Shown: piece by piece, positions 14,135 through 55,828 of the stretch
How the letters are laid out: each line of letters opens with the position of its first letter
How positions within the stretch are numbered: the stretch's first letter is position 1
NCBI GenBank assembly: GCA_003990705.1
Contig: AP018318.1
Span: forward strand, 496,001-560,000
Reading direction: 5' to 3'
DNA from: Nostoc sp. HK-01
GTDB taxonomy: Bacteria > Cyanobacteriota > Cyanobacteriia > Cyanobacteriales > Nostocaceae
DNA length: 64,000 bases
Made by a program: the position numbers and the translations under genes
Notes under the pieces: generated by a model
What the model saw: the letters and a program-made list of their open reading frames with translations, nothing else
What the model was told of the DNA's origin: nothing
Database searches by the model: none

Positions 14135-14155
14135 AATTACATCAATTTGCCGTAG
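14135..14155. promoter_or_regulatory. Copy of the 21-nt sulfur-island motif before the DUF1932 gene
   Basis: AATTACATC followed by AATTTGCCGTAG. Its right half matches the site before tauD (46486-46506) except for one base. It lies 64 nt before the ATG at 14220. Confidence 0.5.
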
Positions 14156-14219
14156 TTTACTCAATAACTCATCACCAAAATCAGTTAAAAGCTGAATATA
14201 AAGCATTATCAAGCTTTTT

Positions 14220-15104
14220 ATGCCAATTCAAACAGTCGGTATTTTAAGTCCTGGTGATATGGGACAAGCGATCGCATCTGTTCTCAATCACAATGGATTA
14301 AGGACGATTGCAGCCTTAGAAAATCGCAGCCAAAGAACTCGCCAGTTAGCCGCCGCCGCGAATATAGAGGATGTGGGTTCTCTTACACAGTTGGTAATTG
14401 AATCTGATATAGTGTTATCCGTTTTGGTTCCCGCCGCCGCCGCAGAGGTAGCCCAGCAAGTAGCTGCGGTGATAAGTAATGTAGGGAAACAGATTCTTTA
14501 TGTTGATGGTAATGCGATCGCACCCCAAAAGGTAAAAACTATCGCTCAAATCATCGAATCATCTGGAGCAACTTTCGTCGATGCTTCCATCATCGGCCCA
14601 CCTCCCAGAGTTCCCGGACGCACGCGCATCTATGCTTCTGGCAAACAAGCTGTGGAATTTCAACAACTAAGTAATTATGGCTTAGATATCCGGGTCATTG
14701 GCGATGAAATTGGTCAAGCTTCGGGTTTGAAAATGTCTTATGCCGCCCTCACCAAAGGACTAACAGCAATTAGTACAGAATTATTAATTGCTGCCCATCG
14801 CTTAGGCTTAGATGAAGAACTATGGAGTGAAGTATCTAGTAGTCAGCCGGAACTTGCTCATATACTTGCTCGTTCCATTCCATCTATGACACCAAAAGCA
14901 CATCGTTGGGTTGGGGAAATGGAGGAGATTGCCGAAACCTTCAAAGAATTAGGTTTGACTGAACGCATATTTTATGGTGCAGCTGATGTTTATCGTTTAG
15001 TGAAAGATACTTCTTTAGGGCAGGAAACACCAGAAGAACGCGATCGCGATCGGCAATTGTCAGAAATTATCACGACGCTTTCTGACGAAACTACATCAAA
15101 CTAA
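14220..15104 (+). CDS. NAD(P)-dependent dehydrogenase, 6PGDH/DUF1932 type
   Basis: Beta-hydroxyacid-dehydrogenase-like protein of 294 aa. The N-terminus is a Rossmann domain with GILSPGDMGQAIASVL as the dinucleotide loop, followed by SDIVLSVLVP and the mid-protein DASIIGPPP. A catalytic-type Lys is in GLKMSYAALTKG (about residue 175), and the C-terminal helical part matches DUF1932 (LIAAHRLGLDEELW, PKAHRWVGEMEEIAETF). The substrate is unknown. The sulfur-island motif lies 64 nt upstream, suggesting co-regulation with the island that starts 4 kb downstream. Confidence 0.85.
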   Translation: MPIQTVGILSPGDMGQAIASVLNHNGLRTIAALENRSQRTRQLAAAANIEDVGSLTQLVIESDIVLSVLVPAAAAEVAQQVAAVISNVGKQILYVDGNAIAPQKVKTIAQIIESSGATFVDASIIGPPPRVPGRTRIYASGKQAVEFQQLSNYGLDIRVIGDEIGQASGLKMSYAALTKGLTAISTELLIAAHRLGLDEELWSEVSSSQPELAHILARSIPSMTPKAHRWVGEMEEIAETFKELGLTERIFYGAADVYRLVKDTSLGQETPEERDRDRQLSEIITTLSDETTSN

Positions 15105-15143
15105 ATAGGATTTACGCACAAAGTTGAGACTGGGTATAGGGGA

Positions 15144-15176
15144 GAGGGCTAAGGGTTTTGAACACCTTTAGCCCTC
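15144..15176 (+). terminator. Hairpin after the DUF1932 gene
   Basis: 12-bp stem (GAGGGCTAAGGG pairing with CCTTTAGCCCTC, one G-U) with a 9-nt loop, 40 nt after the stop. No strong T-run follows. Confidence 0.5.
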
Positions 15177-15305
15177 AATGTACTGCGAATTTACAAAATT
15201 TTGCGCTTAGTAGAACAATCACCTCTAAGTTCAGGCAAATAAGCGATGATCATATAATAATCGTTAGTTAATCTAATAGTTAGTAAAACATATCGAACTT
15301 TCCCT

Positions 15306-16604
15306 ATGAAAATTTGGCAGGGACAACTAGGCGATCGCATCAGTAAGGCAATTTACCACCATCTCCCCGCCTTTCGTTGGCGGAATTTTCGTCTATTTTT
15401 CGGGGGACAGTTACTATCAATGTCTGGGACATTTATGACCCAGCAGTTGACTATTCCTTGGTTAGTATACGATTTGACTAAATCTGCTTGGTTGTTAGGA
15501 GTTGCCGGGTTTATACAATTTTTGCCTACGTTGTTAGTGATTCCCTTTTCAGGCGTATTGTCTGATCGCTGGAGTCGTCGTGACTTGTTAATGCTGGTGC
15601 AGATATTGGGAATTAGTGTGTCCTTGGCTTTAACAATTCTGACCTTTACGAATTGGATTACCTTTCCCATCCTATTAATTCTGAGTGTTCTCAACGGTTT
15701 TCTCAAGGGATTAGATATGCCAGTGCGCCATACAATCGTTACCGAAACCGTAGACGATCGCGCTGATTGGAGTAATGCGATCGCTTTAAATTCCGTCATG
15801 TTAAGCTCCTCTCTGGTATTGGGGCCAGCTATGGGTGGGATTTTAATTGCAACTCTAGGGGTGAAATATTGTTTTCTCTACGATACTCTCAGCTACATCC
15901 CAGCAATTTTTACCCTATTAGCAATGCGGCTGAAAGTTAGACCGATGCAGACTATGACTAACCTGAGCGATACTTTCCAGAAAATGCGAGAGGGCTTTGA
16001 ATATGTCTCCAAATTTCAACCGATTAGAGCAATTTTGTTGATGTTAGCGTTACATGGTTTAGTTGGGATGTCTCATGTCGCACTTATGCCTGTTTTTGCA
16101 GCTAAGATTCTCAATGGAGATGCCACAACAATGGCTCACCTTAGCACTTCAGCACCGATTGGCTCGTTTTTTGCTTGTGTCTATCTGAGTGTCAGACGAG
16201 GGATTGTGGGCTTAGACCGTTTGATTATCATCGCTCAAGTTTTAATCGGAATGAGTTTGATATCCTTTTCACTCTCGCGTCAAGTTTGGCTGTCGATCAT
16301 CATCCTTGTGTTTGTTGGCTGCTTTTCTATTCTCAACATTACAAGTAGTAATATGATTATCCAGACCTTAGTTGCCGAAGATAAGCGTGGAAGAGTAATG
16401 AGTTTTTATGCCCTAGCAATGGTGGGTACAATGCCCTTTGGCAATCTTTTAGCTGGAACTTTAGCACATAACTTTGGTGCGACGAATGCCTTGATTGTTT
16501 GTGGCAGTTTGTTTATCTTAGGTGCGCTATGGTTTTCTGCACAATTACCAGTAGTGAGCCGTTGGATAGCTGGCGAAACAAGTGGCTTATCTTTGGAAAA
16601 GTGA
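15306..16604 (+). CDS. MFS exporter, copy 1
   Basis: A 432-aa, 12-span major-facilitator transporter of the MFS_3/enterobactin-exporter-like group. It opens with LPAFRWRNFRLFFGGQLLSMSGTFMTQ; the loop 2-3 motif is SGVLSDRWSRRDLL and the mid-protein signature is LNGFLKGLDMPVRHTIV. It is a clear paralogue of the transporter at 23147-24415, with the same length and blocks in the same order. Substrate unknown; exporters of this kind move hydrophobic small molecules. The long ORF on the opposite strand within it is a shadow. Confidence 0.9.
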   Translation: MKIWQGQLGDRISKAIYHHLPAFRWRNFRLFFGGQLLSMSGTFMTQQLTIPWLVYDLTKSAWLLGVAGFIQFLPTLLVIPFSGVLSDRWSRRDLLMLVQILGISVSLALTILTFTNWITFPILLILSVLNGFLKGLDMPVRHTIVTETVDDRADWSNAIALNSVMLSSSLVLGPAMGGILIATLGVKYCFLYDTLSYIPAIFTLLAMRLKVRPMQTMTNLSDTFQKMREGFEYVSKFQPIRAILLMLALHGLVGMSHVALMPVFAAKILNGDATTMAHLSTSAPIGSFFACVYLSVRRGIVGLDRLIIIAQVLIGMSLISFSLSRQVWLSIIILVFVGCFSILNITSSNMIIQTLVAEDKRGRVMSFYALAMVGTMPFGNLLAGTLAHNFGATNALIVCGSLFILGALWFSAQLPVVSRWIAGETSGLSLEK

Positions 16605-16682
16605 AATTAATGTGATTTTTTGACCTCTCTCCCAACCTCTCTGTCTTGAAAAGTTTTGCGCCGGGAAACCCGGACGCGCAAC

Positions 16683-16723
16683 GCCAGTTGCTTTATGCCG
16701 GGGAACCTGTCCAACGCACTGGC
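16683..16723. repeat. GC-rich interspersed palindrome, copy 2
   Basis: GCCAGTTGC...GGGGAACC...GCACTGGC, with a second palindrome GCCGGGAAACCCGG just before it. Same family as 10504-10541. Confidence 0.65.
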
Positions 16724-16795
16724 TCAACTTTTCGCTCCGACGCGGAGAGGGGAGGATAGAGTATGAGATATCAATGAGAAATTACGATTTTAAAG

Positions 16796-16836
16796 CCTCT
16801 CCCCTGCAAGGAGAGAGGTTTGGAGAGGGGTTTTTT
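16796..16836 (+). terminator. Interspersed repeat with terminator form
   Basis: CCTCTCC...GGAGAGAGG followed by GGAGAGGGGTTTTTT. A related CTCTCCCCTGCAAG copy lies at about 43077-43091. It may terminate the MFS transcript. Confidence 0.5.
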
Positions 16837-16894
16837 AAATCTGTCGAATTCACGTTAAATTAGCTGAATAAAAACGACTACTCAACATCAGAAA

Positions 16895-16928
16895 AAGAGG
16901 TGATCACAACATCTGATGATCACCTCTT
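16895..16928 (-). terminator. Terminator of the groES-groEL operon
   Basis: Perfect 12-bp stem (AAGAGGTGATCA pairing with TGATCACCTCTT), 10-nt loop, followed on the minus strand by TTTTTC. It lies 50 nt beyond the groEL stop. Confidence 0.85.
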
Positions 16929-16977
16929 AAGATTTAGCAAATAGACGAAAAATCTCGCGGTTAATTTCGATGAATGA

Positions 16978-18651
<1,674 letters not shown>

Positions 18652-18726
18652 TTATTTGCGAATGTCATGGGTTATTCGTCATTCAGTGTTGCGGAGTCAG
18701 AATGATGAATAAATCAGGTCTATCGA

Positions 18727-19038: not shown

Positions 19039-19081
19039 ACAAAATTCTCCAAACAAACTTTTCTTAAGGTGGACAAATGGT

Positions 19082-19107
19082 TGCAATTAAGTCATCGACT
19101 AATTGCA
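19082..19107. promoter_or_regulatory. Inverted repeat in the groES leader
   Basis: TGCAATTA and TAATTGCA separated by 10 nt, 44 nt upstream of the groES start. Many cyanobacterial groESL operons carry the HrcA-bound CIRCE element (TTAGCACTC half sites) in this position; no CIRCE was found here. The repeat may be an operator or a leader hairpin. Speculative. Confidence 0.35.
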
Positions 19108-19547
19108 GATGTTTAACTAGCAGGAAAATTTATCATGCGTGATGTTTCTCAAATTCAACACTAAGCATGAACGGCATTCTAATCAAACCAACTAATAAAT
19201 CGTCAGTAAAATCAGAAATTGCCAGTAGCGGAGATTAACTACACTAAGTCTATCGGATTAATGTAGTTTACATTGTGTTAAGTATGATGTCATATAATTT
19301 TCAAAAAATCAAGAGTTTAAATAAGGAAGATATGGGTGTAAAGGTATAGGGGTGTAAGGGAAAAAATGAACCCGACGATTTACGACTTAATATATAGTGA
19401 GAAAGAACGCACTCATCCCCTACACCCACTTCTCGCAAAGGTTTCACCTTTCGTCGTTGCCTTCAGACCTTGCTTCTCCTAGCGTAGCCTCTCCACCAAC
19501 GAGCCATATCTATTCCCTATCACCTGTCACCCGTAACCTGTAACCTA
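19108..19547. other. Intergenic region upstream of groES
   Basis: 440 bp with no coding potential. It contains the groESL promoter by position and pyrimidine-rich low-complexity DNA near 19420-19550. No motif is called. Confidence 0.4.
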
Positions 19548-20900: not shown

Positions 20901-21382
20901 AATTTGAAACCTTATTAGTTAGTATGTGTGGGTGCGGATCGCGTGACGAATGATATTGTCCAGCGAAAAATCTATTTTATTTAGTTTTTCTAAGTATTCG
21001 CACTACAGATAATTAGATTGCCATATATTTAATTCGCTAAGGACTTGAATTTTCTGGGGTGTAATGTAATACTGCTAAATTAAATCCTACTAAATCGGTC
21101 AATAATTAGTATTTTATCGAAAAACCTCGTTTGACCTGACAAATAAGTCTGTCGAGTTTTCTCAAATATCGTTAAAAAATCCTATCTGTTAGACCATTGT
21201 CCCACCAAACCTTTGACAGCGGCAGGATTGAAACTCTTAAGTTCCACAAAACAGTTTCTCGCTGATTTTGAGATTAAAGATTGGCACATACCCGATCCCT
21301 AAAAGGTTTACCCAGTTTTAATCTGGCATCTTTGGGGAAGTTCCATCTTTCCCCTTTTCTTACTTTTAAAGGAGTTGATTTC
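20901..21382. other. Divergent promoter region with sulfur-island motif
   Basis: 480 bp between the methanethiol oxidase and flavoprotein genes, without a gene. It contains one motif copy at 21087-21107. Confidence 0.5.
21087..21107. promoter_or_regulatory. 21-nt sulfur-island motif (methanethiol oxidase/flavoprotein)
   Basis: On the minus strand: AATTATTGACC followed by GATTTAGTAG. Ends match the other copies; the inner GATTTA is shifted by two bases, making this one of the weaker members. Confidence 0.5.
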
Positions 21383-24415: not shown

Positions 24416-24542
24416 AGTATTGAGCAGAGCGATCGCTCTTGTTTAATTCAAATTGATCGCTTGACGATTGCTATAGCTGAATAGCAAGTCAGTTTCTCTA
24501 GAATCTAGTTGATACTGTAAATAAATATTTTTAATCTTGACT

Positions 24543-24563
24543 AAATACGTGTATTTACCGGAG
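24543..24563. promoter_or_regulatory. 21-nt sulfur-island motif before the ssu operon
   Basis: AAATACGTG followed by TATTTACCGGAG. It lies 37 nt before the TTG start at 24600, inside the longer open frame, which supports the shorter start. Confidence 0.6.
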
Positions 24564-33548: not shown

Positions 33549-34604
33549 CTAAGCAACTTTTTGCAAGTGTCGCACACGCGGCATAATTTCTTCGGCAAAA
33601 CGTGTCATCTCCTGCACAAAGGGATTAAATTGCAGCATAAAAGTATCGATACCTGCATCAACAAAAGCGGCAACGCGAGTGGCGACTGTATCATAACTGC
33701 CAACTAAACCTGCGGCTGTACCACCATTCCCCCCAACAGCGGGATTTTTAGCAAAGAGTTGAAACATAACCGCTTCTTTGTCAACGCCTTTGGCAACACT
33801 TAATTTATATTGTTCTTCCAGCTTTTGCAGTGCCATCAGTCGTTCTAGTTCTGCTTGTGCTTCTTCATCGGTCGGACGCGCAATCACAAAGGCTGATAAA
33901 CCAAAACGGACTGTTTGAGGTAAGGAACGGGGACGGCTGATAACTTGTTGAATTACTTTGCGGACATCTGCAATTGGTTGACCGTTGATAAAGTAAACAT
34001 CAGCTTGTTGCGCTGCTAATATCTGCGCTGGCTCTGATGCGCCGCCAAGATAAATCCGTGGATAGGGTTGAGCAACAGGAAAGGGTCGAAAACTTAAATC
34101 TTGAATTTTGAAATATTCGCCTTCAAAGTTAACCTTTTCTCCACTCCACAAGGCTCTTACTACTTGTAACCACTCACCTGAATAGCGGTAACGTTCATCG
34201 TGGGGCGGAAAGGGAATATTAGTCCGTTCCATTTCTGGACGGAACCAAGCACTAATTAAGTTAATGGCAAAACGTCCCTGACTAATGGCATCAATACCTA
34301 AAGCCATCTTCGCTAAGACGGCTGGGTGAAATAATAAAGGTTTAATGGCGGCGATAATTTCTATACTTTCCGTAGCTTCTGCTAAGGCTGCACAAGCTGT
34401 CCAAGTTTCTAGCTGTTCTAAATCTAAACTGCGGGGGTTGGCAATGTGTTGGGCAACTAAGGTTGTGACATATCCTAAACGTTCTGCTTCTAATACTAGC
34501 GATCGCGTGCGTTCATAACTAGCATTCATCGGTTCATCCGGCGTATTCAGCGGGCCAAAGTTACCCCCAACAGGCGACCAAATACCATAGCGTGGTTCTG
34601 ACAT
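33549..34604 (-). CDS. SfnG-like FMN-dependent monooxygenase (luciferase-like), copy 1
   Basis: 351-aa bacterial-luciferase-like monooxygenase of the alkanesulfonate/dimethylsulfone group, which cleaves C-S bonds with FMNH2 and O2. Blocks: MSEPRYGIWSPVGGNFGPLN, KPLLFHPAVLAKMALGIDAISQGRFAINLISAWFRPEME, HDERYRYSGEWLQVVRALW, FVIARPTDEEA, GGTAAGLVGSYDTVATRV. ATG at 34604 with GGAGG 6 nt upstream. It is divergent from a close paralogue at 34779, with a motif copy between them. Confidence 0.87.
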   Translation of the reverse strand: MSEPRYGIWSPVGGNFGPLNTPDEPMNASYERTRSLVLEAERLGYVTTLVAQHIANPRSLDLEQLETWTACAALAEATESIEIIAAIKPLLFHPAVLAKMALGIDAISQGRFAINLISAWFRPEMERTNIPFPPHDERYRYSGEWLQVVRALWSGEKVNFEGEYFKIQDLSFRPFPVAQPYPRIYLGGASEPAQILAAQQADVYFINGQPIADVRKVIQQVISRPRSLPQTVRFGLSAFVIARPTDEEAQAELERLMALQKLEEQYKLSVAKGVDKEAVMFQLFAKNPAVGGNGGTAAGLVGSYDTVATRVAAFVDAGIDTFMLQFNPFVQEMTRFAEEIMPRVRHLQKVA

Positions 34605-34700
34605 TCTTACCTCCAAGTTCGGCAAAAACAAAGGAGATAAAAATATATATACCCCTTGTTTTTTATCTTCATCTGTGCAAGCCTTATAGTATAGTACTAT

Positions 34701-34721
34701 AAATCTACCGATTTACAGTAG
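34701..34721. promoter_or_regulatory. 21-nt sulfur-island motif between two SfnG-like genes
   Basis: AAATCTACC followed by GATTTACAGTAG, about midway between the divergent starts at 34604 and 34779. Confidence 0.65.
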
Positions 34722-34778: not shown

Positions 34779-35876
34779 ATGTCTGAACCACGCTATGGGA
34801 TATGGATTCCTGTTTACGGCAACTGCGGCGTAATGAACCATCCTCTTGAACCTCGTGATGCTAGTTACTCACGAGCCAAGAATTTAATTAGGTTGGCCCA
34901 AAGGTGCGGATTTACCACAACTTTAATAGCGCAACATATCATCAATCCCAGAAATCAAGAACTTGACCAGATGGAAACCTGGACAACAGCAGCAGCACTT
35001 GCAGAAGCGACAGACTCTATAGAGATTATTGCAGCTGTCAAACCTTTATTGTTTCATCCTGCTGTCTTAGCCAAGATGGCTTTAGGTATTGATGCAATTA
35101 GCCAAGGACGTTTTGCAATTAACTTAGTGAGTGCTTGGTTCCGTCCAGAAATGGAAAAACCAGGGATCAATTTTTTGTCTCACGACGAACGTTATCGCTA
35201 TTCTGACGAATGGATAAGAGTTGTCAAAGCTTTGTGGAGTGGGGAAAACGTTAACTTCCACGGCGACTATTTTCACATCAATGATTTGAAGTTGAATCCT
35301 CCACCTATCGCTAAACCCCATCTGCGTGTGTATGTAGGGGGAGAGTCAGAACCAGCGCAAGAACTCGCAGTAAAAGAAGCGCACACATTCTTTCTAAATG
35401 GTCGTCCGATAGAAGTTATCCGCGAAACAATTGCTCAGGTGCGGCAAAAAGCTCACTCTCGCTCTCAACCGTTAGGCTTTGCGATGTCAGCGTTTGTAAT
35501 TGCTCGACCGACAGACTCAGAAGCCGAAGCAGAATATCAAAATTTAAGAGCAATGGTACTTGCACAAGACGATCGCACAGAACTACTCAAAGGAGTAGAT
35601 TCCGAAGTGGTCATGTTCAAAAATATGGCTAAATATCCCGGTGTAGGAAGCAATGGCGGGACTGCGGCTGGTTTGGTTGGGAGTTATGAAACCGTAGCCC
35701 AGCGTATTACTGAATTTACCAAAGTAGGAATTGATACTTTCATGCTGCAATTCCAACCTTTCGCTACAGAAATGGAGCGTTTTGCTACGGAGATTATACC
35801 AAGAGTAAGAGCGTTAACAGAAGAAAGTGAAGCGATCGCCAACGCCAAAATAGGGGCTAAGAATTTTAGATTTTAG
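34779..35876 (+). CDS. SfnG-like FMN-dependent monooxygenase, copy 2
   Basis: 365-aa paralogue of the previous protein, with the same blocks (MSEPRYGIWIPVYGNCGVMN, AVLAKMALGIDAISQGRFAINLVSAWFRPEME, HDERYRYSDEW, FVIARPTDSEAEAE, GGTAAGLVGSYETVAQRI). The two genes likely arose by inverted duplication and then specialised. The ferritin-like gene follows 48 bp later. Same FMNH2-dependent C-S cleavage chemistry is expected; substrate not known. Confidence 0.87.
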   Translation: MSEPRYGIWIPVYGNCGVMNHPLEPRDASYSRAKNLIRLAQRCGFTTTLIAQHIINPRNQELDQMETWTTAAALAEATDSIEIIAAVKPLLFHPAVLAKMALGIDAISQGRFAINLVSAWFRPEMEKPGINFLSHDERYRYSDEWIRVVKALWSGENVNFHGDYFHINDLKLNPPPIAKPHLRVYVGGESEPAQELAVKEAHTFFLNGRPIEVIRETIAQVRQKAHSRSQPLGFAMSAFVIARPTDSEAEAEYQNLRAMVLAQDDRTELLKGVDSEVVMFKNMAKYPGVGSNGGTAAGLVGSYETVAQRITEFTKVGIDTFMLQFQPFATEMERFATEIIPRVRALTEESEAIANAKIGAKNFRF

Positions 35877-37257: not shown

Positions 37258-37261
37258 CCAA

Positions 37262-37282
37262 AAGTGGTAAATCGAGATAATT
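37262..37282. promoter_or_regulatory. 21-nt sulfur-island motif before metQ (partial)
   Basis: On the minus strand: AATTATCTC followed by GATTTACCACTT. The central GATTTACC is intact, the right end is not. It lies 65 nt before the metQ start. Confidence 0.45.
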
Positions 37283-37346
37283 CGTAATTCGTAATTAAGA
37301 AGACGAAGATTTTATCACGTTGTTGTTGATTAAAATAGGCGATCGC

Positions 37347-38237
37347 ATGAATACCATCAATATTAACCGTCGATTCTTTGTCATAGCCATTACCTCATTT
37401 GCTGCTTCTACAATATTTTCTAGCTGTAGTTCACCACAAAATAATTCTGCTGCTAGTACAACTGCAAATATATCAGCAACCCCAGCGGCTAACACTACTA
37501 CAAGCGCAACTAAAGAAAAAATCAAAGTTGGTGTCACACCAGTTCCAGCCGGCGAAATTTTAGAGTTTGTCAAAAAGAATTTAGCACCAGAAGCGGGACT
37601 AGATATCGAAATAGTTACATTCAATGACTTTGTGCAGAATAACACTGCTTTGAAAGATGGTGTGATTGATGCCAATTATTTCCAACATATCCCTTTTATG
37701 GAGGACTATGGCAAGAAACATAACTTTGAAATGTATGCTTTTACGCCGCAAATTCATTTAAATCCCGTGGGACTCTTTTCTAAAAAATATAAGTCCCTCA
37801 AAGATTTACCGAATAAAGCCCTAGTCACAATTCCTGATGATCCTAGTAATGCTCATCGGGCTTTAAAAGTCTTGGAATCATCAGGCTTAATCAAACTTAA
37901 GGAAAATGTTCGTCCGGCAAGTCCTAAAGATATTATTGCTAACCCCAAAAATATCCAAATTAAAGAAATACCAGGAGCGCAAGCAATTCCCAGTCTTCCT
38001 GATGTGGATTTAGCCGGAGTTACAGGTAATTGGATTTTACAAGCTGGCTTGAAAACTGATAAAGATGCTTTAGCAATAGAGTCAGCAAACGAGCAAATTT
38101 ATGCTGTAACAGTTACAACCTTAAAAGGCAAAGAAACTGACCCCAGAATTCAGAAATTATATAAGTTACTCCGCGATGATAAAGTCAAACAATTTATTAG
38201 AGATAAATATCAAGGTTCAGTGATTCCTATTCCTTAA
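37347..38237 (+). CDS. metQ: MetQ/NlpA-type substrate-binding lipoprotein
   Basis: 296-aa lipoprotein with a lipobox FSSC after a hydrophobic leader, a Ser/Thr/Ala-rich linker, and the NlpA/MetQ domain: KIKVGVTPVPAGEILEFVKKNLAPEAGLDIEIVTFNDFVQNNTAL, DANYFQHIPFMEDYGKKH, PVGLFSKKYKSLKDLP, TIPDDPSNAHRALKVLESSGLIKL. ATG at 37347 preferred to TTG at 37320. It binds methionine or another sulfur amino acid for MetNI; the monooxygenase neighbours suggest a modified thioether amino acid. Confidence 0.93.
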   Translation: MNTININRRFFVIAITSFAASTIFSSCSSPQNNSAASTTANISATPAANTTTSATKEKIKVGVTPVPAGEILEFVKKNLAPEAGLDIEIVTFNDFVQNNTALKDGVIDANYFQHIPFMEDYGKKHNFEMYAFTPQIHLNPVGLFSKKYKSLKDLPNKALVTIPDDPSNAHRALKVLESSGLIKLKENVRPASPKDIIANPKNIQIKEIPGAQAIPSLPDVDLAGVTGNWILQAGLKTDKDALAIESANEQIYAVTVTTLKGKETDPRIQKLYKLLRDDKVKQFIRDKYQGSVIPIP

Positions 38238-38269
38238 AAAATAATAATTTATCGTGGAAGCATTCTGAG

Positions 38270-39247
38270 ATGATTACATTTACCGATGTTCGTAAAATTT
38301 ATCACCAAGGCAACCAAAAAGTTGTTGCGTTAGATGGTGTGAGTGTTCATGTCAAACCAGGAGAAATTTTTGGTGTTTTAGGTCAAAGTGGCGCGGGTAA
38401 AAGCACATTAATTCGCTGTGTTAATCAACTAGAAAAACCGACATCGGGTTCAGTTGTAGTTGATGGACAGGAAATAACAAAATTGTCAGGAGATAAACTG
38501 CGTCGCGCCCGTCAACATATTGGAATGATTTTTCAACACTTTAATTTACTGAGTTGCCGAACTGTGGCGGAAAATATTGCTTTTCCTTTGGAAGTGATGG
38601 GCTATAGCAGATTGCAACGTCGGGCAAAAGTGGAAGAATTGATTTCACTTGTCGGGTTGAAAGGTAAGGCAGATGCTTATCCAGCACAACTTTCTGGTGG
38701 TCAAAAGCAACGAGTAGGTATCGCTAGGGCTTTGGCTGGAGAACCTAATGTATTACTTTCTGATGAAGCCACATCTGCACTCGATCCCCAAACTACGAGG
38801 TCAATTCTAGACCTGTTACGTGACCTAAACAAGCGTATGGGTTTAACAATCTTACTAATTACCCATGAAATGGGTGTAGTCAAGCAAATCTGCGATAGTG
38901 TGGCAATACTCAACGCAGGCAAAATTGTCGAAAAGGGATATGTTAGTGATTTAATCTCCAAACCAGAATCATTTCTTGCCCAAGAATTTTTTCCTCGTCG
39001 TAATGGTTATAGACTAAAACCTGGTGCTGTCCTCGCCACGATCGCCTTTGCGGGAGAACAAGCCAGTCAGCCAATTTTCGCCACCTTAGCCCGACGGTTT
39101 GATGTAGATGTCAATATCCTGAGTGGAAGTGTGGAAACTGTAGGCGATCGCCGCGTTGGTCAATTCCACGTCGAATTAATCGGGCAAAAGATAACGCAAG
39201 CTTTGAAATATTTACACGAAGAAAATTTTGAAGTGGAAGTGCATTAA
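38270..39247 (+). CDS. metN: MetN-type ABC ATPase with NIL domain
   Basis: 325 aa. Walker A GQSGAGKST at 38-46, signature LSGGQKQR, Walker B NVLLSDEATSALD, His switch LITHEMG. The C-terminal 75 residues (ATIAFAGEQASQPIFATLARRFDVDVNILSG) form the NIL domain that binds methionine and causes trans-inhibition in characterised MetN proteins. It lies 32 bp after metQ. Its permease, metI, is 5.2 kb downstream in the same direction. Confidence 0.95.
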   Translation: MITFTDVRKIYHQGNQKVVALDGVSVHVKPGEIFGVLGQSGAGKSTLIRCVNQLEKPTSGSVVVDGQEITKLSGDKLRRARQHIGMIFQHFNLLSCRTVAENIAFPLEVMGYSRLQRRAKVEELISLVGLKGKADAYPAQLSGGQKQRVGIARALAGEPNVLLSDEATSALDPQTTRSILDLLRDLNKRMGLTILLITHEMGVVKQICDSVAILNAGKIVEKGYVSDLISKPESFLAQEFFPRRNGYRLKPGAVLATIAFAGEQASQPIFATLARRFDVDVNILSGSVETVGDRRVGQFHVELIGQKITQALKYLHEENFEVEVH

Positions 39248-41457: not shown

Positions 41458-41777
41458 TAAAAGATTGACAACTTATAGAAAATTAAGGATTATTAATCTA
41501 CGGTATTTCGATAAATTTTTAGTTGTTTAATAGTGTTTAGCTTAACTTAAATGTGTTACCAGCGGTAAACGCCGCAGAGATAAAAGCATTCTTGACGTTC
41601 TCTCCATACATGGCTGCGGGGGATTCTTGTTTCAACGAAGTTCTTCATAACTAAGAGGGATTCAGGCTAGGCGAATCAACAAAACGGCGATGAAAGTTTA
41701 TTTACGCCGACCTGTACTAGTTGCTTACAACTCGCCAACATAGATTTTCTACAAGAAAAAATTTGGAGATAAAAATA
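41458..41777. other. Intergenic region with sulfur-island motif
   Basis: 320 bp. Apart from the motif at 41498-41518 nothing is recognised; the start region of the next gene has GGAG at 41765. Confidence 0.5.
41498..41518. promoter_or_regulatory. 21-nt sulfur-island motif before the SfnB-like gene 2
   Basis: On the minus strand: AAATTTATC followed by GAAATACCGTAG. Both outer parts match the consensus; it lies 260 nt before the ATG at 41778. Confidence 0.55.
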
Positions 41778-43016
41778 ATGATTAAAAGTCTAGAAAAAGT
41801 TGCAGATACAACAATCCAGTTTTCGGCTCCAATCAGAACTAACTCACCGGAACTCCAACAGTTGCTCGACTATATAGCTCTGGGAGCAAGTGATCGCGAT
41901 CGCGATCGCATCTTGCCTTTTGATGTAGTTGAATTAATTCGACGTTCCAAGTTAGGTGCATTACGAATCCCCGTAGCCGAAGGTGGCGGTGGTAGCACAG
42001 CAAGAGAATTATTCGAGGTGGTGATTAAGTTAGGCGATGCAGACCCGAACGTAGCTCACATTGTCCGCAATCATTTTTCTGTCACAGAGCGAATTTTGCG
42101 TTCTGAACGCACCGAAAGAAATCGGCGTTGGTTAAAAGCCGTGGCTGATGGGGCAATTATTGGCCTCGCTTCTACAGAATTAGAAGTTAAACGGGCTGGC
42201 GGTGGCCAAGTTGTGAATACAAAATTAACTCCCGATGGCGACGGCTATCGTCTGAATGGGACGAAGTATTACAGCACTGGCAGTCTTTATGCAGACTGGA
42301 TTTTTGTGCGGGTACTAGTACCCGATGGCACTACAGCGTTCATATTAATTCCTACTAACCGTGAAGGAATTGATCTGATAGATGATTGGGACGGCTTCGG
42401 ACAAAGACTTACAGGCACAGGAACAACCACATTCACCAATGTTCGTGTCGAAACAAGTGAAGTGTTTTTTGAGACGGACACAGACAAAGACAACCTGCCA
42501 TACAATATCGTCCCGCAATTATTCTTGACTGCTATTAACGCTGGTATTATTCGCAGCGTTCTGCGTGATGCCACAAACCTTGTCCATAAACGTCCCCGGA
42601 CTTTTTATCATGCCGTATCCGAGCAAGCAGCAGAAGACCCCATCTTACAGCAAACTGTTGGACAAATTGCTGCCAATGCCTTTGCGGCAGAAGCGATCGT
42701 TTTAGCCGCAGCCGATGGACTTGATTTGCTCCCTGCGGCTAAAGCCCAAGGCGAAGAAGCAGAAACCGCCGCAGCCTTAGAAACTTCTTTAAGTGCAGCT
42801 AAAGCCAAATTAATTGTCGATGATTTGGCTTTACGTTCAGCCACCTTACTATTTGAAGTTGGCGGGGCTTCCACAACGAAAAAAAGCTCCAACTTTGACC
42901 GCCACTGGCGCAATGCTCGTACTTTATCCTCACACAACCCAAATCACTTTAAGGCGCGTGCGATCGGCGACTATGAGATAAACGGTACGCCATTGCCGCA
43001 GAGAGGATTCTTTTAA
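41778..43016 (+). CDS. SfnB/DszC-like flavoprotein, copy 2
   Basis: 412-aa acyl-CoA-dehydrogenase-fold enzyme: FDVVELIRRSKLGALRIPVAEGGGG, DADPNVAHIVRNHFSVTER, RLNGTKYYSTGSLYADW, DDWDGFGQRLTGTGTTTFTNV, and DRHWRNARTLSSHNPNHFKARAIGDY near the end. The last block marks the SfnB/DszC-type monooxygenases. ATG at 41778 with GGAG 9 nt upstream; the in-frame extension to 41721 is unconserved. Expected to use reduced flavin from a reductase elsewhere in the genome; none is in the window. Confidence 0.88.
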   Translation: MIKSLEKVADTTIQFSAPIRTNSPELQQLLDYIALGASDRDRDRILPFDVVELIRRSKLGALRIPVAEGGGGSTARELFEVVIKLGDADPNVAHIVRNHFSVTERILRSERTERNRRWLKAVADGAIIGLASTELEVKRAGGGQVVNTKLTPDGDGYRLNGTKYYSTGSLYADWIFVRVLVPDGTTAFILIPTNREGIDLIDDWDGFGQRLTGTGTTTFTNVRVETSEVFFETDTDKDNLPYNIVPQLFLTAINAGIIRSVLRDATNLVHKRPRTFYHAVSEQAAEDPILQQTVGQIAANAFAAEAIVLAAADGLDLLPAAKAQGEEAETAAALETSLSAAKAKLIVDDLALRSATLLFEVGGASTTKKSSNFDRHWRNARTLSSHNPNHFKARAIGDYEINGTPLPQRGFF

Positions 43017-44476: not shown

Positions 44477-45133
44477 ATGCAAGGACAAGAACTACTACAA
44501 AGCTTGCTGCAAGCCACTACTGAAACTTTTTACATGGTTGGTATATCTGCCCTAGTTGCTATAGCTTTAGGCTTGCCTTTGGGGTTGTTGCTAGTGATGA
44601 CAGGCCCTGGTAACTTGTTAGATTTTCCGCAACTGCATAAAGTATTGGGTGCGATCGTTAATACTGGACGCTCATTTCCGTTTATTATTCTGCTGGTCGT
44701 TTTAACTCCACTCACCCGCTTAATTGTCGGTACTTCCATCGGTAGCACCGCCGCCTTAGTTCCCCTCACCCTCGCCGCCATTCCATTTTTTGGCCGCATT
44801 GCTGAAACCAGCATTTTAGAAGTTGATAAAGGACTCATAGAGGCCGCCCAAGCAATGGGATGCAATTATTGGCAAATCATTCTCAAAGTATTGATACCGG
44901 AAGCTTTGCCTTCACTAGTATTAGGTATGACAATTCTGATTGTGAGTTTACTTAACTCCTCCGCAATGGCTGGGGCTGTTGGTGGCGGTGGTTTAGGTAA
45001 CTTAGCAATTCAATACGGCTACCAACGCTTTGATGTAGGGGTGATGTTTTCTACCATTGTAGTTTTAATTGCATTAGTACAGATTATTCAATTCTTAGGT
45101 GATTTAATTGCCCAGCGTATGCGAAAACGCTAA
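44477..45133 (+). CDS. metI: MetI-type ABC permease
   Basis: 218-aa permease with five or so spans and the MetI hallmarks ISALVAIALGLPLGLLL, NTGRSFPFIILLVVLTPLTRLIVGTSIG, EAA loop IEAAQAMGCNYWQIILKVLIPEALPSLVLGMTI and SAMAGAVGGGGLGNLAIQYGYQRF. It is the missing partner of MetQ and MetN, encoded after four enzyme genes in the same orientation. Confidence 0.94.
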   Translation: MQGQELLQSLLQATTETFYMVGISALVAIALGLPLGLLLVMTGPGNLLDFPQLHKVLGAIVNTGRSFPFIILLVVLTPLTRLIVGTSIGSTAALVPLTLAAIPFFGRIAETSILEVDKGLIEAAQAMGCNYWQIILKVLIPEALPSLVLGMTILIVSLLNSSAMAGAVGGGGLGNLAIQYGYQRFDVGVMFSTIVVLIALVQIIQFLGDLIAQRMRKR

Positions 45134-45406: not shown

Positions 45407-46375
45407 TTAGTTTAGCGCTGGTTCTGCTAACACCTTCTCAGCTTTTTGTTTCAGGACTGTTGGTAAATCACTTGTTAATGGCTCACCTTCAACCACTTGC
45501 GATTTAAAACCATCTGGCCCAACAGGAACATCGCCTGTAATGGTGGTGCGATAGAGTACGCGCTCAACTTCTATATGATCTAAATCCTGGGGTGCTAAAT
45601 GGGAAGTAGCGCGGTTGTCCCAGAATGCAATATCACCATTGTGCCAACGGAAGCGGGTGGTGTAAGCAGGTTTAGTGATTTGGTTGAAGAACAACTCCAG
45701 GAGTAGTTCGCTTTCTTGGGGCGACACATCCAGAATGTGGGAGGTGAAGCCAGGATTCACAAATAGTGCGCGTTCACCAGTCTCAGGATGAACCCGCACT
45801 ACTGGGTGAATCGAAACCTGTGGATTAGCTGCAATCCGTTGAGCATATTTGCTATTACTGGGTATCCGCAAACGTGCATTAAATCTATGCTCGGCTTTTA
45901 ATCCATCTGCTAGGGCGCGTAAGGGTGCAGACAAACCTTCATAAGCTGCAACCAAGTTAGTCCACTGTGTATCACCGCCAAAGGTGGGAACATTCACCGC
46001 CCGCAAAATTGAACCCGCAGGAGGGTTAACAACCGCAGTCACATCAGTGTGCCAACGGCTTTCATAGCTGGTACGCCGTAGACCGTTGCGACGCTCAAAG
46101 CGGCTGCGGTCAATTGGTAAGATTTGGGAAAAGCCTTCTATTGGCTCATCTTCGTGGGGATGTGCATAAGTCACTTCGCCGAAACGAGATGTAAAGGCGA
46201 TTTGTGCCGCATGATCTATATTTTGGTTGCGAAAGAATACGACTTTCCACTTCAATAGTGCTTTGCGAATTTCGGCAACTACATCATCGTGCAGATGAGT
46301 TGAAAGATTCACGCCGCTGATTTCAGCACCAGTGAAACCAGAAGTTGGTTTGACTTCAATATGCTTGTAGCCCAT
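45407..46375 (-). CDS. tauD: TauD/TfdA-family Fe(II)/2-oxoglutarate dioxygenase
   Basis: 322 aa. Hydroxylates taurine or a related sulfonate or alkyl sulfate, releasing sulfite or sulfate. Iron ligands are visible as WHTDVT (His, Asp) and the distal His in FWDNRATSHLA; the 2-oxoglutarate-binding Arg is in ERVLYRTTI. The N-terminus GAEISGVNLS and the ALLKWKVVFFRNQ block are typical. Taurine cannot be separated from other sulfonates or sulfate esters by sequence here. A motif copy lies 110 nt upstream. Confidence 0.9.
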   Translation of the reverse strand: MGYKHIEVKPTSGFTGAEISGVNLSTHLHDDVVAEIRKALLKWKVVFFRNQNIDHAAQIAFTSRFGEVTYAHPHEDEPIEGFSQILPIDRSRFERRNGLRRTSYESRWHTDVTAVVNPPAGSILRAVNVPTFGGDTQWTNLVAAYEGLSAPLRALADGLKAEHRFNARLRIPSNSKYAQRIAANPQVSIHPVVRVHPETGERALFVNPGFTSHILDVSPQESELLLELFFNQITKPAYTTRFRWHNGDIAFWDNRATSHLAPQDLDHIEVERVLYRTTITGDVPVGPDGFKSQVVEGEPLTSDLPTVLKQKAEKVLAEPALN

Positions 46376-46485
46376 GTCTATTCTCCAAAGTTTGATCTAT
46401 GGGTGAATGTTGGTATTCGACAGCTTTCTTTGGAAGATTTTGATTAAATCCAAAGAAACATTTGTCACCGAATCTATTCTACTTT

Positions 46486-46506
46486 AAATCTATCAATTTA
46501 CCGTAG
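46486..46506. promoter_or_regulatory. 21-nt sulfur-island motif before tauD
   Basis: AAATCTATC followed by AATTTACCGTAG, between the end of the CmcJ-like gene and the tauD start. Confidence 0.65.
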
Positions 46507-49156: not shown

Positions 49157-49238
49157 ATTTTTAGGGAATTGAAAATTATCAGAGTTTTAATTTTCATGTA
49201 GAGGTGCAAAGATTTAGGCGCAATTGATTTGCACCAAT

Positions 49239-51592: not shown

Positions 51593-51657
51593 GTTAATTC
51601 TTAAGTATAAAAAGACAAAATCTCTAATAACCTCTCCGCGTACCTCCCTTCGGGTTC

Positions 51658-51702
51658 GCCAGTCCCCCATCGTGACGGAGACCGCCAAGACGGGGGCTGG
51701 TC
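51658..51702. repeat. GC-rich interspersed palindrome, copy 3
   Basis: CCAGTCCCCC...GGGGGCTGG with a GACGGAGACCGCCAAGAC core. More diverged member of the 10504/16683 family, inside the gap between the aldolase and binding-protein genes. Confidence 0.6.
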
Positions 51703-51752
51703 TCACCGCGCCAACCTCCGCATACCTTTGCGTTAAAAAAAGGTATTCGCAA

Positions 51753-52514
51753 CTACTCCAATAAATCCGGTTCTTCCCGCACAATCCGGTCATAGAGAGG
51801 CTGAAAACTAAACCAACCGCCCGAATGTGTTCCCACTTGACCATGAGTGAAAGCCGCCGTTTCATGATCAATTGGCAGTGGTTTACCAGCCGCTTCTGCC
51901 AACAGTTGAGCTTGAGCCGATCGCTCGAAGGAAATGTACCAAAAAGCAGCCTCGTCGACTGTTTGTCCCACAGTCAAAAAGCCATGATTTCTGAGGATGA
52001 CAGCTTTTTTATCTCCCAAGGTTTCAGCAATTCTTCTACCTTCAGAAGTATCTAAAACCACACCTTTATAGTCATTAAATAAAACATGGTCTTGATAAAA
52101 AGCACAAGCATCTTGGGTTAAAGGGTCAAGCAGACGACCCAAACTCGACCAAGATTTCCCATGCAGCGAATGAGCATGAGCCGCTGCAACTATATCAGGT
52201 CGTGCTTCATGTACCTGGGAATGAATCGCAAAGGCGGCACGATTCACAGGCGCATCACCTTTGACAACTTCCCCTTCTCTATCAACTAAAAGCAAGTCAG
52301 AAACACGGATGTGACCAAAATACTTACCCAAGGGATTCACCCAAAAATGGTCGGTAAATTCAGGGTCTCGGGCGGTAATGTGGCCAGCTATTCCTTCACT
52401 AAAGCCAAAACGACCAAATAGCCGAAATGCCGCGGCTAGGCGTTGTTTGCGATAAAGGCGTTCTTCTTCCACCCGTTCAAATACTGGCGGTTGGGGTCTA
52501 GTGAAATTTGGCAT
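51753..52514 (-). CDS. Class II aldolase/adducin-family protein
   Basis: 253 aa. Zinc-dependent aldolase fold: GRFGFSEGIAGHITARDPEFTDHFWVNPLGKYFGHIRVSDLLLVD, the metal site AHAHSLHGK, RNHGFLTVG and EAAFWYISFERSAQAQLLAEAAG. Members act on fuculose-type phosphates or decarboxylate; some are enzymes of sulfur salvage (methylthioribulose-phosphate dehydratase relatives). Substrate not assignable. It lies 13 bp after the cupin gene, within a probable operon. Confidence 0.85.
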   Translation of the reverse strand: MPNFTRPQPPVFERVEEERLYRKQRLAAAFRLFGRFGFSEGIAGHITARDPEFTDHFWVNPLGKYFGHIRVSDLLLVDREGEVVKGDAPVNRAAFAIHSQVHEARPDIVAAAHAHSLHGKSWSSLGRLLDPLTQDACAFYQDHVLFNDYKGVVLDTSEGRRIAETLGDKKAVILRNHGFLTVGQTVDEAAFWYISFERSAQAQLLAEAAGKPLPIDHETAAFTHGQVGTHSGGWFSFQPLYDRIVREEPDLLE

Positions 52515-52527
52515 GATTTTCTCTTTC

Positions 52528-53172
52528 TTATTTCACAGGTACATTAGAATATCCAGAACGAAAAGACCGCACGCTCTTTTGTTCGGGATGATAATGATTT
52601 CGCCAAATGCTACCAGTATCATTCCCCATAACATGAATTGAAATGGATGGAGCAAAGACAGTAGTCGCTTTGACAGAGTGAATATCGTTGTCTGGAGGTA
52701 ATAAATGATAAATATCCCCAGTTTTTACTTGATAGGTTCCCACTGCTTTCAACTGGGCTTGTTCCTCTAATTCGCCGCTATCGAGACGACGATATACGGT
52801 TTCTTCCTGTTTACCTTGATATAAACCGACAAGTCCCCAAGATAAATGATCGTGGACAGGCGTGATTGCATTAGGAGGAATCACCAAACTGAAGATAGTT
52901 AGCGATCGCTCCTGGGAACGATATAGCAACCATTGTCCAATTCCTCCGCCCAAACCACTGTCAGGATTTGGTTGGTCAAAAGGTTTGGGTAGCCAATTCT
53001 TTTTTTTCAGCAGTGCTGCAAAGTGCGGCTCTAAAGCATTGAGGGTTTCGGCGCGGTTATGAGTTGTGCGTGAGCTAATTTCTTGCGCGATCGCCACAAA
53101 CTCACGCAAATCAGGACTATCTACAAACCATTGGTCTGCTTGTAAAGGTTCAAGAACAGTGGTGTGGGGCAT
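52528..53172 (-). CDS. Cysteine-dioxygenase-family cupin (thiol dioxygenase)
   Basis: 214-aa cupin of the cysteine/3-mercaptopropionate dioxygenase family. The iron ligands sit in PPNAITPVHDHLSWGLVGLYQG (HDH) and the later His in PSISIHVMG. YRRLDSGEL and DIYHLLPPDNDIHSVKAT are family blocks. It oxidises a thiol to a sulfinate, a natural partner for desulfonating and desulfinating enzymes. Lies 13 bp after the SsuD-like gene; overlapping frames on the other strand are shadows. Confidence 0.88.
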   Translation of the reverse strand: MPHTTVLEPLQADQWFVDSPDLREFVAIAQEISSRTTHNRAETLNALEPHFAALLKKKNWLPKPFDQPNPDSGLGGGIGQWLLYRSQERSLTIFSLVIPPNAITPVHDHLSWGLVGLYQGKQEETVYRRLDSGELEEQAQLKAVGTYQVKTGDIYHLLPPDNDIHSVKATTVFAPSISIHVMGNDTGSIWRNHYHPEQKSVRSFRSGYSNVPVK

Positions 53173-53185
53173 AGTTGGGGATTTC

Positions 53186-54292
53186 TCAAGCTACGATTGC
53201 TGTTTGTCGTTCTTGTCGTTGGACTTCTTGACGTACCAAAGGAATCACATCTCGACCGTAGGCGATCGCATCTTCTACTGGGTCAAAACCACGAATCAAG
53301 ATTGTTGTGACTCCCGCTTGGTAGTAATCAAATAATGACTCTGCTACCTGTTCTGGAGTCCCGACTAAGGCTGTAGTGTTACCACGCGCACCAGTAGCAG
53401 CTGCGATCGGTGTCCATAAACGCTTATCGTGAATTTCCCTTTCCTTAGCAAAATCCAGCAAGCGCAATGAACCAACAGCTTCAGGTCGTGCAGCATCAGG
53501 AGATAATTGAATACCTGCGTTCCTACGGGTTTCATTGATCCGCGAAAGAATATAATGGGCTTTCTCCCAGGCTTTTGCTTCGGTTTCGCCCAAAATCGGA
53601 CGCAAGGAAATACTAAACCGTAAATCTTTTCCTGGCGGTGATGCGGCTTTTACCTCGGCGATGCGTTGTTTAATCGCCGCGATGGGTTCTCCCCAGAAAG
53701 CATAGACATTACTGTGTTTTGCCCCTACACCCACAGCCGCACCAGAAGCACCGCCAAAATATATGGGAATATGTGGTTGCTGTATGGGTTTAACGTCGGA
53801 AAATGCCCCTTTGAATTGGTAAAATTCCCCTGCATAATCAAAAGGTTCTGTACTCGTCCAAACTCGTCGCACAACATCAAGATATTCATCAGTTCGACGA
53901 TAGCGAGTATCATGATCAAGCCAGTCACCATCACGCTGTTGTTCAGCATCGCTCCCGCCAGTAATGATATGTACAGCAACACGACCATTGCTAAAGTGAT
54001 CTAATGTAGCTAATTTGCGTGCGGCTAAAGTAGGAGACACAAAACCCGGTCTATGAGCAAGTAAAAACTTGAGCCTTTCGGTTGCAGCAGCCACATAACT
54101 AACAACATTAAAACCATCCGGGCCTGTAGAGCTATAACCAACCAGCACTCGGTCAAAGCCACCATCTTCATGGACTTTGGCAAAGTTACGAACATAACCT
54201 AAGTCTATGCTTCCCCCTGTAATTGATACGGTAGGGCTATGTAATTCCGACGCATCTCGCGTACCAATCATGCCAATAAATTCAACAGACAT
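53186..54292 (-). CDS. ssuD: Alkanesulfonate monooxygenase, SsuD-type
   Basis: 368 aa and the closest protein here to E. coli SsuD. Shared blocks: RLKFLLAHRPGFVSPTLAARKLATLDHFSNGRVAVHIITGG, DGDWLDHDTRYRRTDEYLDVVRRVW, QQPHIPIYFGGASGAAVGVGAKHSNVYAFWGEP, and LWTPIAAATGARGNTTALVGTPEQVAE. It would release sulfite from alkanesulfonates with FMNH2 and O2. It lacks the usual ssuE-type reductase next to it. First enzyme of the ssuD-cupin-aldolase unit, downstream of the SsuA-like gene at 54391. Confidence 0.9.
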   Translation of the reverse strand: MSVEFIGMIGTRDASELHSPTVSITGGSIDLGYVRNFAKVHEDGGFDRVLVGYSSTGPDGFNVVSYVAAATERLKFLLAHRPGFVSPTLAARKLATLDHFSNGRVAVHIITGGSDAEQQRDGDWLDHDTRYRRTDEYLDVVRRVWTSTEPFDYAGEFYQFKGAFSDVKPIQQPHIPIYFGGASGAAVGVGAKHSNVYAFWGEPIAAIKQRIAEVKAASPPGKDLRFSISLRPILGETEAKAWEKAHYILSRINETRRNAGIQLSPDAARPEAVGSLRLLDFAKEREIHDKRLWTPIAAATGARGNTTALVGTPEQVAESLFDYYQAGVTTILIRGFDPVEDAIAYGRDVIPLVRQEVQRQERQTAIVA

Positions 54293-54309
54293 ATTAAACC
54301 TCGTTTGTC

Positions 54310-54345
54310 ATTAGTCATTGGTCAATAGTCAATAGTCAATAGTTT
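54310..54345. repeat. Heptanucleotide tandem repeat
   Basis: Repeats of the type CATTGGTCAATAGTCAATAG, typical Nostocales short tandem repeats, between ssuD and the SsuA-like gene. Confidence 0.7.
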
Positions 54346-54390
54346 TTTACTCCCCTGCTCCTCTGCCCCTCTGCCGCCCTGCTCTTTTTC

Positions 54391-55482
54391 CTACCTAGAA
54401 GCAGTAGTTCCCAACGGACACACTGCTGTAGCAACATCTACCCGTTGTGGAATAATTTTTTGTTCTAGTAACCAGTCAGCAGTTTTCTGAAGTTTGGCGA
54501 CATCTTCACTATTCGGAAATACGTAAGATTCAGGGCCACGATTTTTAGTAACTTGCTTGGCTACAACATCAGAAAGTTTTAACTCTTTGACCAAAAAATC
54601 TGATGCTGCATTACTATTTTGATTTAGCCATTCACCATCCTCACTCAAAGCAGTCAGAGCAGCTTTCACCGCTACAGGATTTTCTTTTGCTGCATCACCA
54701 CGCACAACCATAATGCTGTAGGTAGGTGCAGGGTGTGTAGTAGTAATTCTTCTGGCTTTATGCTCTAATTCGGCAAGAGAAATATACGGTTCCCAAACTG
54801 CCCAAGCATCAACAGAACCTTGATATAAAGCTGGTGCAGCGTCATTTGGTGATAGGTAAACTCGCTGGACTTTTTCTTTAGGAATATTTTCTTTTTCCAA
54901 AACTTTTAATAATAGATATTCGCCTGCACCACCTTGGTTAACTGCAACTTTTTTACCTATTAAATCAGCCGGTTTACGAATAGCAGAATTACCCCGCACT
55001 AAGATGGCGTTACTTAAAGAATCGGGACTCGGACGCTGGACGGAACCAATACAAAGAGGTTGTCCCGCAGCGATTCCAGAAAGGGTAGGAATATCACCAC
55101 AGCCGCCAATATCCGCCCGATTACCATTGAGAGAACTTAAAAGCGTCGCACATCGGTCAAATGGCCCACTCCATTCAACTTTAATATTTTGTGTTGTTAA
55201 TTGACGCTCTAGCTCACCTCTTTGACGCGCTAGGGGAATAATCCCGCCTTTTTGATATCCCAAGCGAATAACATTATTTTTCTCTGTAATTTTGGTAGAC
55301 ACCGTGTTTGAGGCGGTATCTGATTTAGCTGAGATATTGGTGGCTGTTTGTTGACTGCAACTAGAAGCAAGCAGTCCTACAAAAGAAGCTGCGATCGCCA
55401 ATATCTTACCAGTAGGATATGTCTGTTTGTGCGTAAAGCGGTGTTCTTTTAAAGAATTGACCACAATTGACTCCTTGCTCAC
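54391..55482 (-). CDS. ssuA: SsuA-like substrate-binding lipoprotein, orphan 2
   Basis: 363 aa with a long leader: about 25 polar residues, hydrophobic ILAIAASFVGLLASSC with lipobox ASSC, then the binding fold: VIRLGYQKGGIIPLARQRGELERQL, VEWSGPFDRCATLLSSLNGNRADIGGCGDIPTLSGIAAG, KPADLIGKKVAVNQGGAGEYLLLKVLEKENI, GSVDAWAVWEPYISLAELE. This is a classical aliphatic-sulfonate-binding protein. It is the first gene of the unit running to 51753 and perhaps beyond; the motif at 55537 is 55 nt upstream. No permease is adjacent. Confidence 0.9.
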   Translation of the reverse strand: MSKESIVVNSLKEHRFTHKQTYPTGKILAIAASFVGLLASSCSQQTATNISAKSDTASNTVSTKITEKNNVIRLGYQKGGIIPLARQRGELERQLTTQNIKVEWSGPFDRCATLLSSLNGNRADIGGCGDIPTLSGIAAGQPLCIGSVQRPSPDSLSNAILVRGNSAIRKPADLIGKKVAVNQGGAGEYLLLKVLEKENIPKEKVQRVYLSPNDAAPALYQGSVDAWAVWEPYISLAELEHKARRITTTHPAPTYSIMVVRGDAAKENPVAVKAALTALSEDGEWLNQNSNAASDFLVKELKLSDVVAKQVTKNRGPESYVFPNSEDVAKLQKTADWLLEQKIIPQRVDVATAVCPLGTTASR

Positions 55483-55828
55483 AATTTTTAGGAGTTTAGG
55501 CTGGTATATCTGTAATCATCAATGTTTAACTACTTTAAATCGACCGATTTACCGGAGTTAACAAGAATTACAATACCACTTTTTTGCTGAACTGCCCAAA
55601 TTAAGTAAATATTTCTTTATCTCTCAATCTAATAAAACGTGCTAAACCACTGCTATATGGAGTTCAACTCCTGATTGTAGTTCGCGTACCAAAATCAAGC
55701 GAGTAGGGTCGGCTAAATTAATTTTGCCATCGGAATCATTTTGAATTTCTTTGAGCTTTTATTAGTAAATAAGATGCTTTCGCCCTGATGCTTTAGGGAC
55801 TTTCAACAAGTACAATAGTGAGAGTAGA
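55483..55828. other. Intergenic region with sulfur-island motif
   Basis: 345 bp. Besides the motif, a 38-codon frame without start on the minus strand (55642-55758; contains DPTRLILVRELQSGVELHIAVV) looks like a gene tail, but I cannot name its family. Confidence 0.4.
55537..55557. promoter_or_regulatory. 21-nt sulfur-island motif before ssuA
   Basis: AAATCGACC followed by GATTTACCGGAG. It is the best-conserved member, 55 nt upstream of the ssuA start. Confidence 0.65.

Follow-up and report, generated by a model that had tools for sequence, protein, structure and literature searches.

A 28-bp palindrome before organosulfur genes of Nostoc sp. HK-01 as the probable operator of a CymR-like Rrf2 repressor

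A 28-bp palindrome, CTACNNTAAATNNATNNATTTANNGTAG, was found before organosulfur genes scattered over the genome of Nostoc sp. HK-01. It is probably the operator of an autoregulated repressor of the Rrf2 family (designated A), which would be held on the DNA by CysK, released by O-acetylserine (OAS) and set over the organosulfur genes and an accessory groESL. Binding of the motif by A, repression of the genes behind it and a sensor function of CysK and OAS are inferred. No description of a cyanobacterial Rrf2 sulfur regulator or of such a 28-bp operator was found in the literature searched, which consisted mostly of papers available free of subscription.

Form and number of the sites

The window, i.e. 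the whole stretch of 64,000 nucleotides that was analysed, corresponds to C1:496001-560000 of a genome of 7.52 Mb in 8 contigs, all of which was searched. An earlier note on the window had described eight copies of a near-palindromic 21-nt motif as the probable operator of a sulfur-starvation or organosulfur regulator. The symmetry was borne out and the length was not. With up to 3 mismatches allowed, the literal 21-mer recovered three of the eight sites (0 expected, 100 shuffles); it was dropped as the unit, and extension by 7 nt revealed the 28-bp palindrome of which it is a part. At up to 3 mismatches, 17 palindrome sites were present genome-wide, versus one for the reversed pattern.

Sites were scored with an earlier matrix of 13 sites, from which the site at 41498 was left out, and with a final matrix of 15 sites, which includes five window sites and no site from the promoters of A. 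The background of the 13-site matrix in 2 Mb of simulated sequence was 2 positions above 12 and 11 positions above 8. With a sequence-only model, applied to the best 150 of 4624 first-look candidates, at least 20 distinct genome sites were obtained at E<0.3; of the 20 sites from these best 150 candidates, five lie inside the window and 15 outside. The count of operators excludes two further palindrome matches, at C1:2630030 (9.3, 13-site matrix) and C1:4987134 (at most 6 with that matrix).

Sites in the window

The predicted operators of the window and the genes beside them are as follows (window coordinates).

14128..14155, + strand: palindromic predicted operator (14135 of the earlier note), score 28.1, 64 nt before the DUF1932-domain dehydrogenase gene
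14220-15104, + strand: DUF1932-domain dehydrogenase gene (Pfam)
18615-16978, - strand: accessory groEL, downstream of the accessory groES
19038-18730, - strand: accessory groES
19239..19266, - strand: weaker palindromic predicted operator, score 14.4 (13-site matrix) or 13.2 (15-site matrix), 200 nt before the accessory groES
24536..24563, + strand: doubtful operator (24543 of the earlier note), score 1.8, before a substrate-binding-protein gene of an ssu-like cluster
33549-34631, - strand: SfnG-like flavin monooxygenase gene (Pfam PF00296)
34694..34721, no strand assigned: palindromic predicted operator (34701 of the earlier note), score 34.3, between the two divergent SfnG-like genes
34779-35876, + strand: SfnG-like flavin monooxygenase gene (Pfam PF00296), scoring below the NCBIfam SfnG cut-off
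41498..41525, + strand: palindromic predicted operator, score 26.8 (24.2 out of sample, 13-site matrix), before the SfnB-like gene
41721-43016, + strand: SfnB-like gene of the acyl-CoA dehydrogenase family (Pfam)
45407-46375, - strand: tauD-like gene (Pfam TauD)
46479..46506, - strand: palindromic predicted operator (46486 of the earlier note), score 37.3, 103 nt before the tauD-like gene
54391-55482, - strand: ssuA-like binding protein gene (Pfam), followed by a luciferase-like monooxygenase gene
55530..55557, - strand: palindromic predicted operator (55537 of the earlier note), score 34.1, 47 nt before the ssuA-like gene

Five of the eight positions listed earlier (14135, 34701, 41498, 46486 and 55537) were thus kept, with scores from 26.8 to 37.3 under the 15-site matrix, in whose training set all five stand, and the site at 46479..46506 is the only one in the genome that matches the palindrome pattern with 0 mismatches. 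The site at 19239..19266 was absent both from the training set and from the earlier list. The position 24543 stayed doubtful: its core TAAATACGTGTATTTA is symmetric and its left CTAC arm is replaced. A near-identical sequence stands shortly before the orthologous binding-protein gene in the relative G108, and the site may still be relevant despite its low score; a search for the variant gave orthologues in 4 of 60 genomes, with G108 as the one supporting relative.

The remaining two positions did not fit the palindrome matrix and were rejected as operators, namely 21087 (21085..21112, best score -7.0) and 37262 before metQ (37260..37287, best score -21.6). A metQ homologue in the relative G078 is preceded by a strong site (L049, 39.9), and metQ-type genes may be targets in other genomes. 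Between 37320 and 45133 of the window, monooxygenase, GST and SfnB-like genes stand between the MetQ-/MetN-type genes (37320-39247) and a permease gene (44477-45133), so that the transporter set is split.

Genes behind the sites in the genome and in relatives

The sulfur assignment of the earlier note was upheld, as the sites recur before ssu-, tau- and sfn-type genes and, weakly, before sulfate-transport genes. Inside the window the candidate targets are the DUF1932, SfnG-like, SfnB-like, tauD-like and ssuA-like genes and the accessory groESL. The site neighbours outside it include an SDR-tauD-GST unit, a methyltransferase-ssuA-like pair, further ssuA-like genes, luciferase-like (ssuD-type) genes, AprA-like flavoproteins, an aldo/keto reductase-arylsulfotransferase unit, and GST and dienelactone hydrolase genes. 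Weaker sites (16-17) precede a TauE-family permease gene and a solute-binding protein gene read as sulfate-binding. Sites were also present upstream of two genes with a BLH-phosphatase domain, at L201:4581-4608 (C1:53580, 19.6) and L203:5082-5109 (C1:4273081, 20.5), respectively; both genes are distant from other recognised sulfur genes.

When the 20 sites at E<0.3 (from the best 150 of 4624 candidates) were sorted by us according to their neighbours, 14 were clearly sulfur-linked, three were plausible (GST/hydrolase, BLH, and DUF1932 within the window cluster) and three were unclear, standing beside a protein without Pfam match (C1:1011970), an O-methyltransferase (C1:343879) and a HAD-type gene (contig C4). 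The last is a good site (G000:C4:4575-4602, L041; 20.9, 13-site matrix) on a small contig, and the regulon may reach onto a plasmid.

Of the 30 loci that the pattern retrieved from relatives, 24 contain a site above 12. Homologues of proteins that neighbour a site in the genome of HK-01 were present at 17 of these 24 loci, one of them weak (MFS, 28%), and at none of the other six. The sites precede homologues of the target genes in relatives as well, and the absence before orthologous sulfur genes that the earlier note had named as counter-evidence was not what these 30 loci presented.

Accessory groESL

The groES-groEL pair of the window is a second copy, the other groES being located at C1:4622801 (81% identical). 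The accessory set was defined as the six groES copies, including the one in the window, with at least 90% identity to the window groES. In five of these six a predicted operator, scoring 13.2 to 24.0, stands 200-253 nt upstream; none of 25 other groES loci has a site above 6. The neighbours in the accessory set are an SBP56 gene (one copy, that of HK-01), ssuA-like genes (three copies, about 30% identity) and a CmcJ-type fragment (one copy); at the sixth copy only groEL is visible in the short flank. Control of a chaperonin operon by sulfur supply would come as a surprise.

Candidate regulator A

As the earlier note had stated, the window holds no regulator gene. The candidate A, a gene of the Rrf2 family, is located outside it at C1:4471846-4472298, 3.9 Mb away on the same contig, directly upstream of cysK and with cysE divergent. 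Two sites precede it (23.3 and 15.8, 13-site matrix). Among the 84 fetched A loci, a cysK gene stands close to A at 50, and none was found at the other 34. A was detected in 84 of 145 Nostocaceae genomes (best E <1e-58), and its promoters, scored with the 15-site matrix, contain a site above 8 in 83 of 84 cases, a site above 12 in 73 and two sites in 57, mostly at -44 and near -135. A set of 80 named loci comes from Nostoc, Anabaena, Calothrix, Cylindrospermum, Dolichospermum, Brasilonema and other genera, the closest being Nostoc sp. LEGE 06077 (97% identity); it is in large part drawn from the same assemblies and thus not independent. In this set a site above 8 was present in 77 and above 12 in 66. 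This conservation is weak proof by itself, because the conserved stretch extends from about -55 to the start codon, beyond the operator alone. A partial A gene at G063:C343:3365-3631 (83% identity, residues 1-89) contains two in-frame stops and is apparently a decayed copy.

The genome has four Rrf2 genes, including a second Rrf2-cysK pair, B (C1:5759266-5759652, L046), which is 48% identical to A. None of 22 B promoters contains a site (15-site matrix), and the idea that every Rrf2-cysK pair has one was rejected. The C-terminal tail MYYI is invariant in A (86 of 86 rows, 84 distinct loci) and present in 79 of the 80 named loci, in 5 of 5 sister proteins (see below) and in 22 of 22 B proteins; in the predicted model of A these last residues are at pLDDT <50. 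Since B shares both the tail and the cysK neighbour and lacks the operator, neither of these two features distinguishes A.

Co-occurrence and phylogeny

Genomes with A have a mean of 6.3 palindrome matches and those without A 1.9, versus 1.1 and 1.0, respectively, for the reversed pattern (Mann-Whitney p about 1e-15 for the motif count, a statistic that ignores relatedness). In the nine genera in which both states occur, the members with A have more matches in eight and equal numbers in one. At least 4 matches were counted in four genomes without A, one of them G030; the three that were examined (G009, G076 and G095) each carry a sister Rrf2 (50-52% identity) with a site within its own promoter. 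One genome with A, G001, has 0 pattern matches at 3 mismatches, and its A promoter scores 16.7. The co-occurrence is also compatible with A being, as it may be, a mere target.

A quick tree built from 67 Rrf2 proteins places every promoter above 12 in one clade of 50 rows (SH-aLRT 89), and no promoter above 12 was found for B and the other Rrf2 outside that clade. Sites also precede the genes of two clade members that belong to another order (L300, 30.3; L301, 24.2). Before the genes of four clade members from other families (L302-L305) neither a detectable site nor an alternative palindrome was found; one of these genomes, G324, has 3 pattern matches elsewhere and none before its A-like gene. 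Of 292 genomes of the phylum, 42 contain an Rrf2 match at E<=1e-40, a threshold that also admits B-like proteins, and pattern matches in the phylum genomes outside the family number mostly 0-1, with exceptions up to 4.

Comparison with known regulators

A belongs to the Rrf2 superfamily by its scores against PF02082 (117 bits, cut-off 30) and TIGR00738 (109.9, cut-off 73.3), and a winged-helix Rrf2 fold is predicted for it. Where the earlier note had guessed at either an Rrf2-type (CymR-like) or a LysR-type regulator, the comparison of genomes favours the former. Because the score of A against CymR (93.5 bits) is under the NCBIfam NF047409 cut-off of 195, A is called CymR-like and is not filed as CymR. 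The likeness is drawn from the protein and the cysK linkage. Like CymR, A ends in an isoleucine tail of the CysK-partner kind, which B shares and which is therefore not specific to A. Unlike CymR-CysK of Bacillus subtilis and CymR of Staphylococcus aureus, A would act chiefly on genes for organosulfur oxygenases and transporters and on groESL, and the phylum is another one. With IscR, A has the Rrf2 fold in common and a similar score to solved IscR structures; its 74 bits are below the NCBIfam cut-off of 207.55 and the target genes differ. The fold was discarded as a criterion between CymR and IscR, A being about equally close to both. Another cyanobacterial Rrf2 regulator, Slr0846 of Synechocystis PCC 6803, is known here from a paper title, which refers to psaAB expression, and from a table, in which it is an "uncharacterized IscR".

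Proposed mechanism and alternatives

A CysK-linked repressor released by OAS is proposed from the tail of A and from the literature on CysK partners and CymR. According to PMC12895370 and PMC4961446, CysE is anchored in CysK by a C-terminal isoleucine, a feature that CymR and other CysK partners share. In B. subtilis, as described in PMC2940859, CysK stabilises CymR on the DNA and reads the state of the cysteine pool from OAS. By analogy, when sulfur is plentiful, A would sit on the 28-bp operators near the starts of its target genes and block transcription, and would be kept in place by CysK, whose active site would take up the C-terminal -MYYI tail. With a shortage of sulfide and cysteine, OAS would accumulate and occupy CysK, the tail would be freed and A would leave the DNA, whereby the organosulfur-scavenging genes, A-cysK and the accessory groESL would be switched on.

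That A senses an iron-sulfur cluster, as IscR does, or cysteine or redox state directly, and not CysK and OAS, is rather unlikely. Such sensing would agree with the nearness of A in fold and sequence to IscR entries, which is about that to CymR, and with the 34 of 84 fetched A loci at which no neighbouring cysK was found. The cluster site of IscR consists of three cysteines, and most A proteins have too few for an iron-sulfur cluster: of 86 rows, 66 have one cysteine, 13 have two, five have none and only two have three, so that 71 rows with 0 or 1 cysteine speak against an IscR-type cluster, as the invariant MYYI tail speaks against the alternative as a whole. Activation of the target genes by A under sulfur starvation, in place of repression, is improbable. 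It would suit the sites at 100-250 nt upstream (tauD 103, groES 200-253) and the second A site near -135; against it, many sites stand 16-65 nt upstream of start codons, and TTG (-35-like) was found at -46 to -36 before 16 of 32 sites (mean 9.5 and maximum 17 in other windows), a -35/-10 scan that is only suggestive of repressor-type promoter geometry. CymR itself is a repressor (PMC2940859).

A could also be a mere member of the regulon, with the motif bound by another regulator, either of LysR type, e.g. CysB, or of Crp type, such as CysR, a member of the Crp family; we consider this quite improbable. In its favour, LysR-type control of sulfur genes is common (PMC2940859) and CysR governs sulfate assimilation in Synechococcus elongatus PCC 7942; CysR is thus likewise a cyanobacterial sulfur regulator, for which no link to the 28-bp palindrome or to organosulfur genes is seen in the accessible part of PMC12016511. 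On the other side, no other regulator gene, LysR included, was recognised beside the listed sites when the translations were read by eye, and the motif and the Rrf2 lineage travel together, including the sister Rrf2 of the three genomes without A. LysR boxes and Crp sites also differ in look from the 28-bp palindrome. The several copies within one 64-kb region might suggest a small mobile element that landed there, which is extremely improbable: 15 of the 20 best sites (from the best 150 of 4624 candidates) are outside the window, the flanks differ, and the place before A is kept across many genera, by which that reading is already contradicted.

Significance

With A as the CysK-linked repressor, an anonymous repeat becomes a testable circuit: the operator is described by a matrix, a candidate for the regulator is at hand, the scattered targets are listed, and the cyanobacteria of this group are culturable. 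If this is true, a sulfur switch of the Firmicutes kind, in which an Rrf2 protein is linked to CysK, would operate in cyanobacteria as well and act there on other genes, and numerous unnamed oxygenases and transporters could be tied to sulfur supply. More tentatively, a CymR-like Rrf2 repressor together with CysK might be the master switch of organosulfur scavenging in heterocyst-forming cyanobacteria, and its regulon might take in a dedicated second GroES-GroEL that is made only when organic sulfur is mined.
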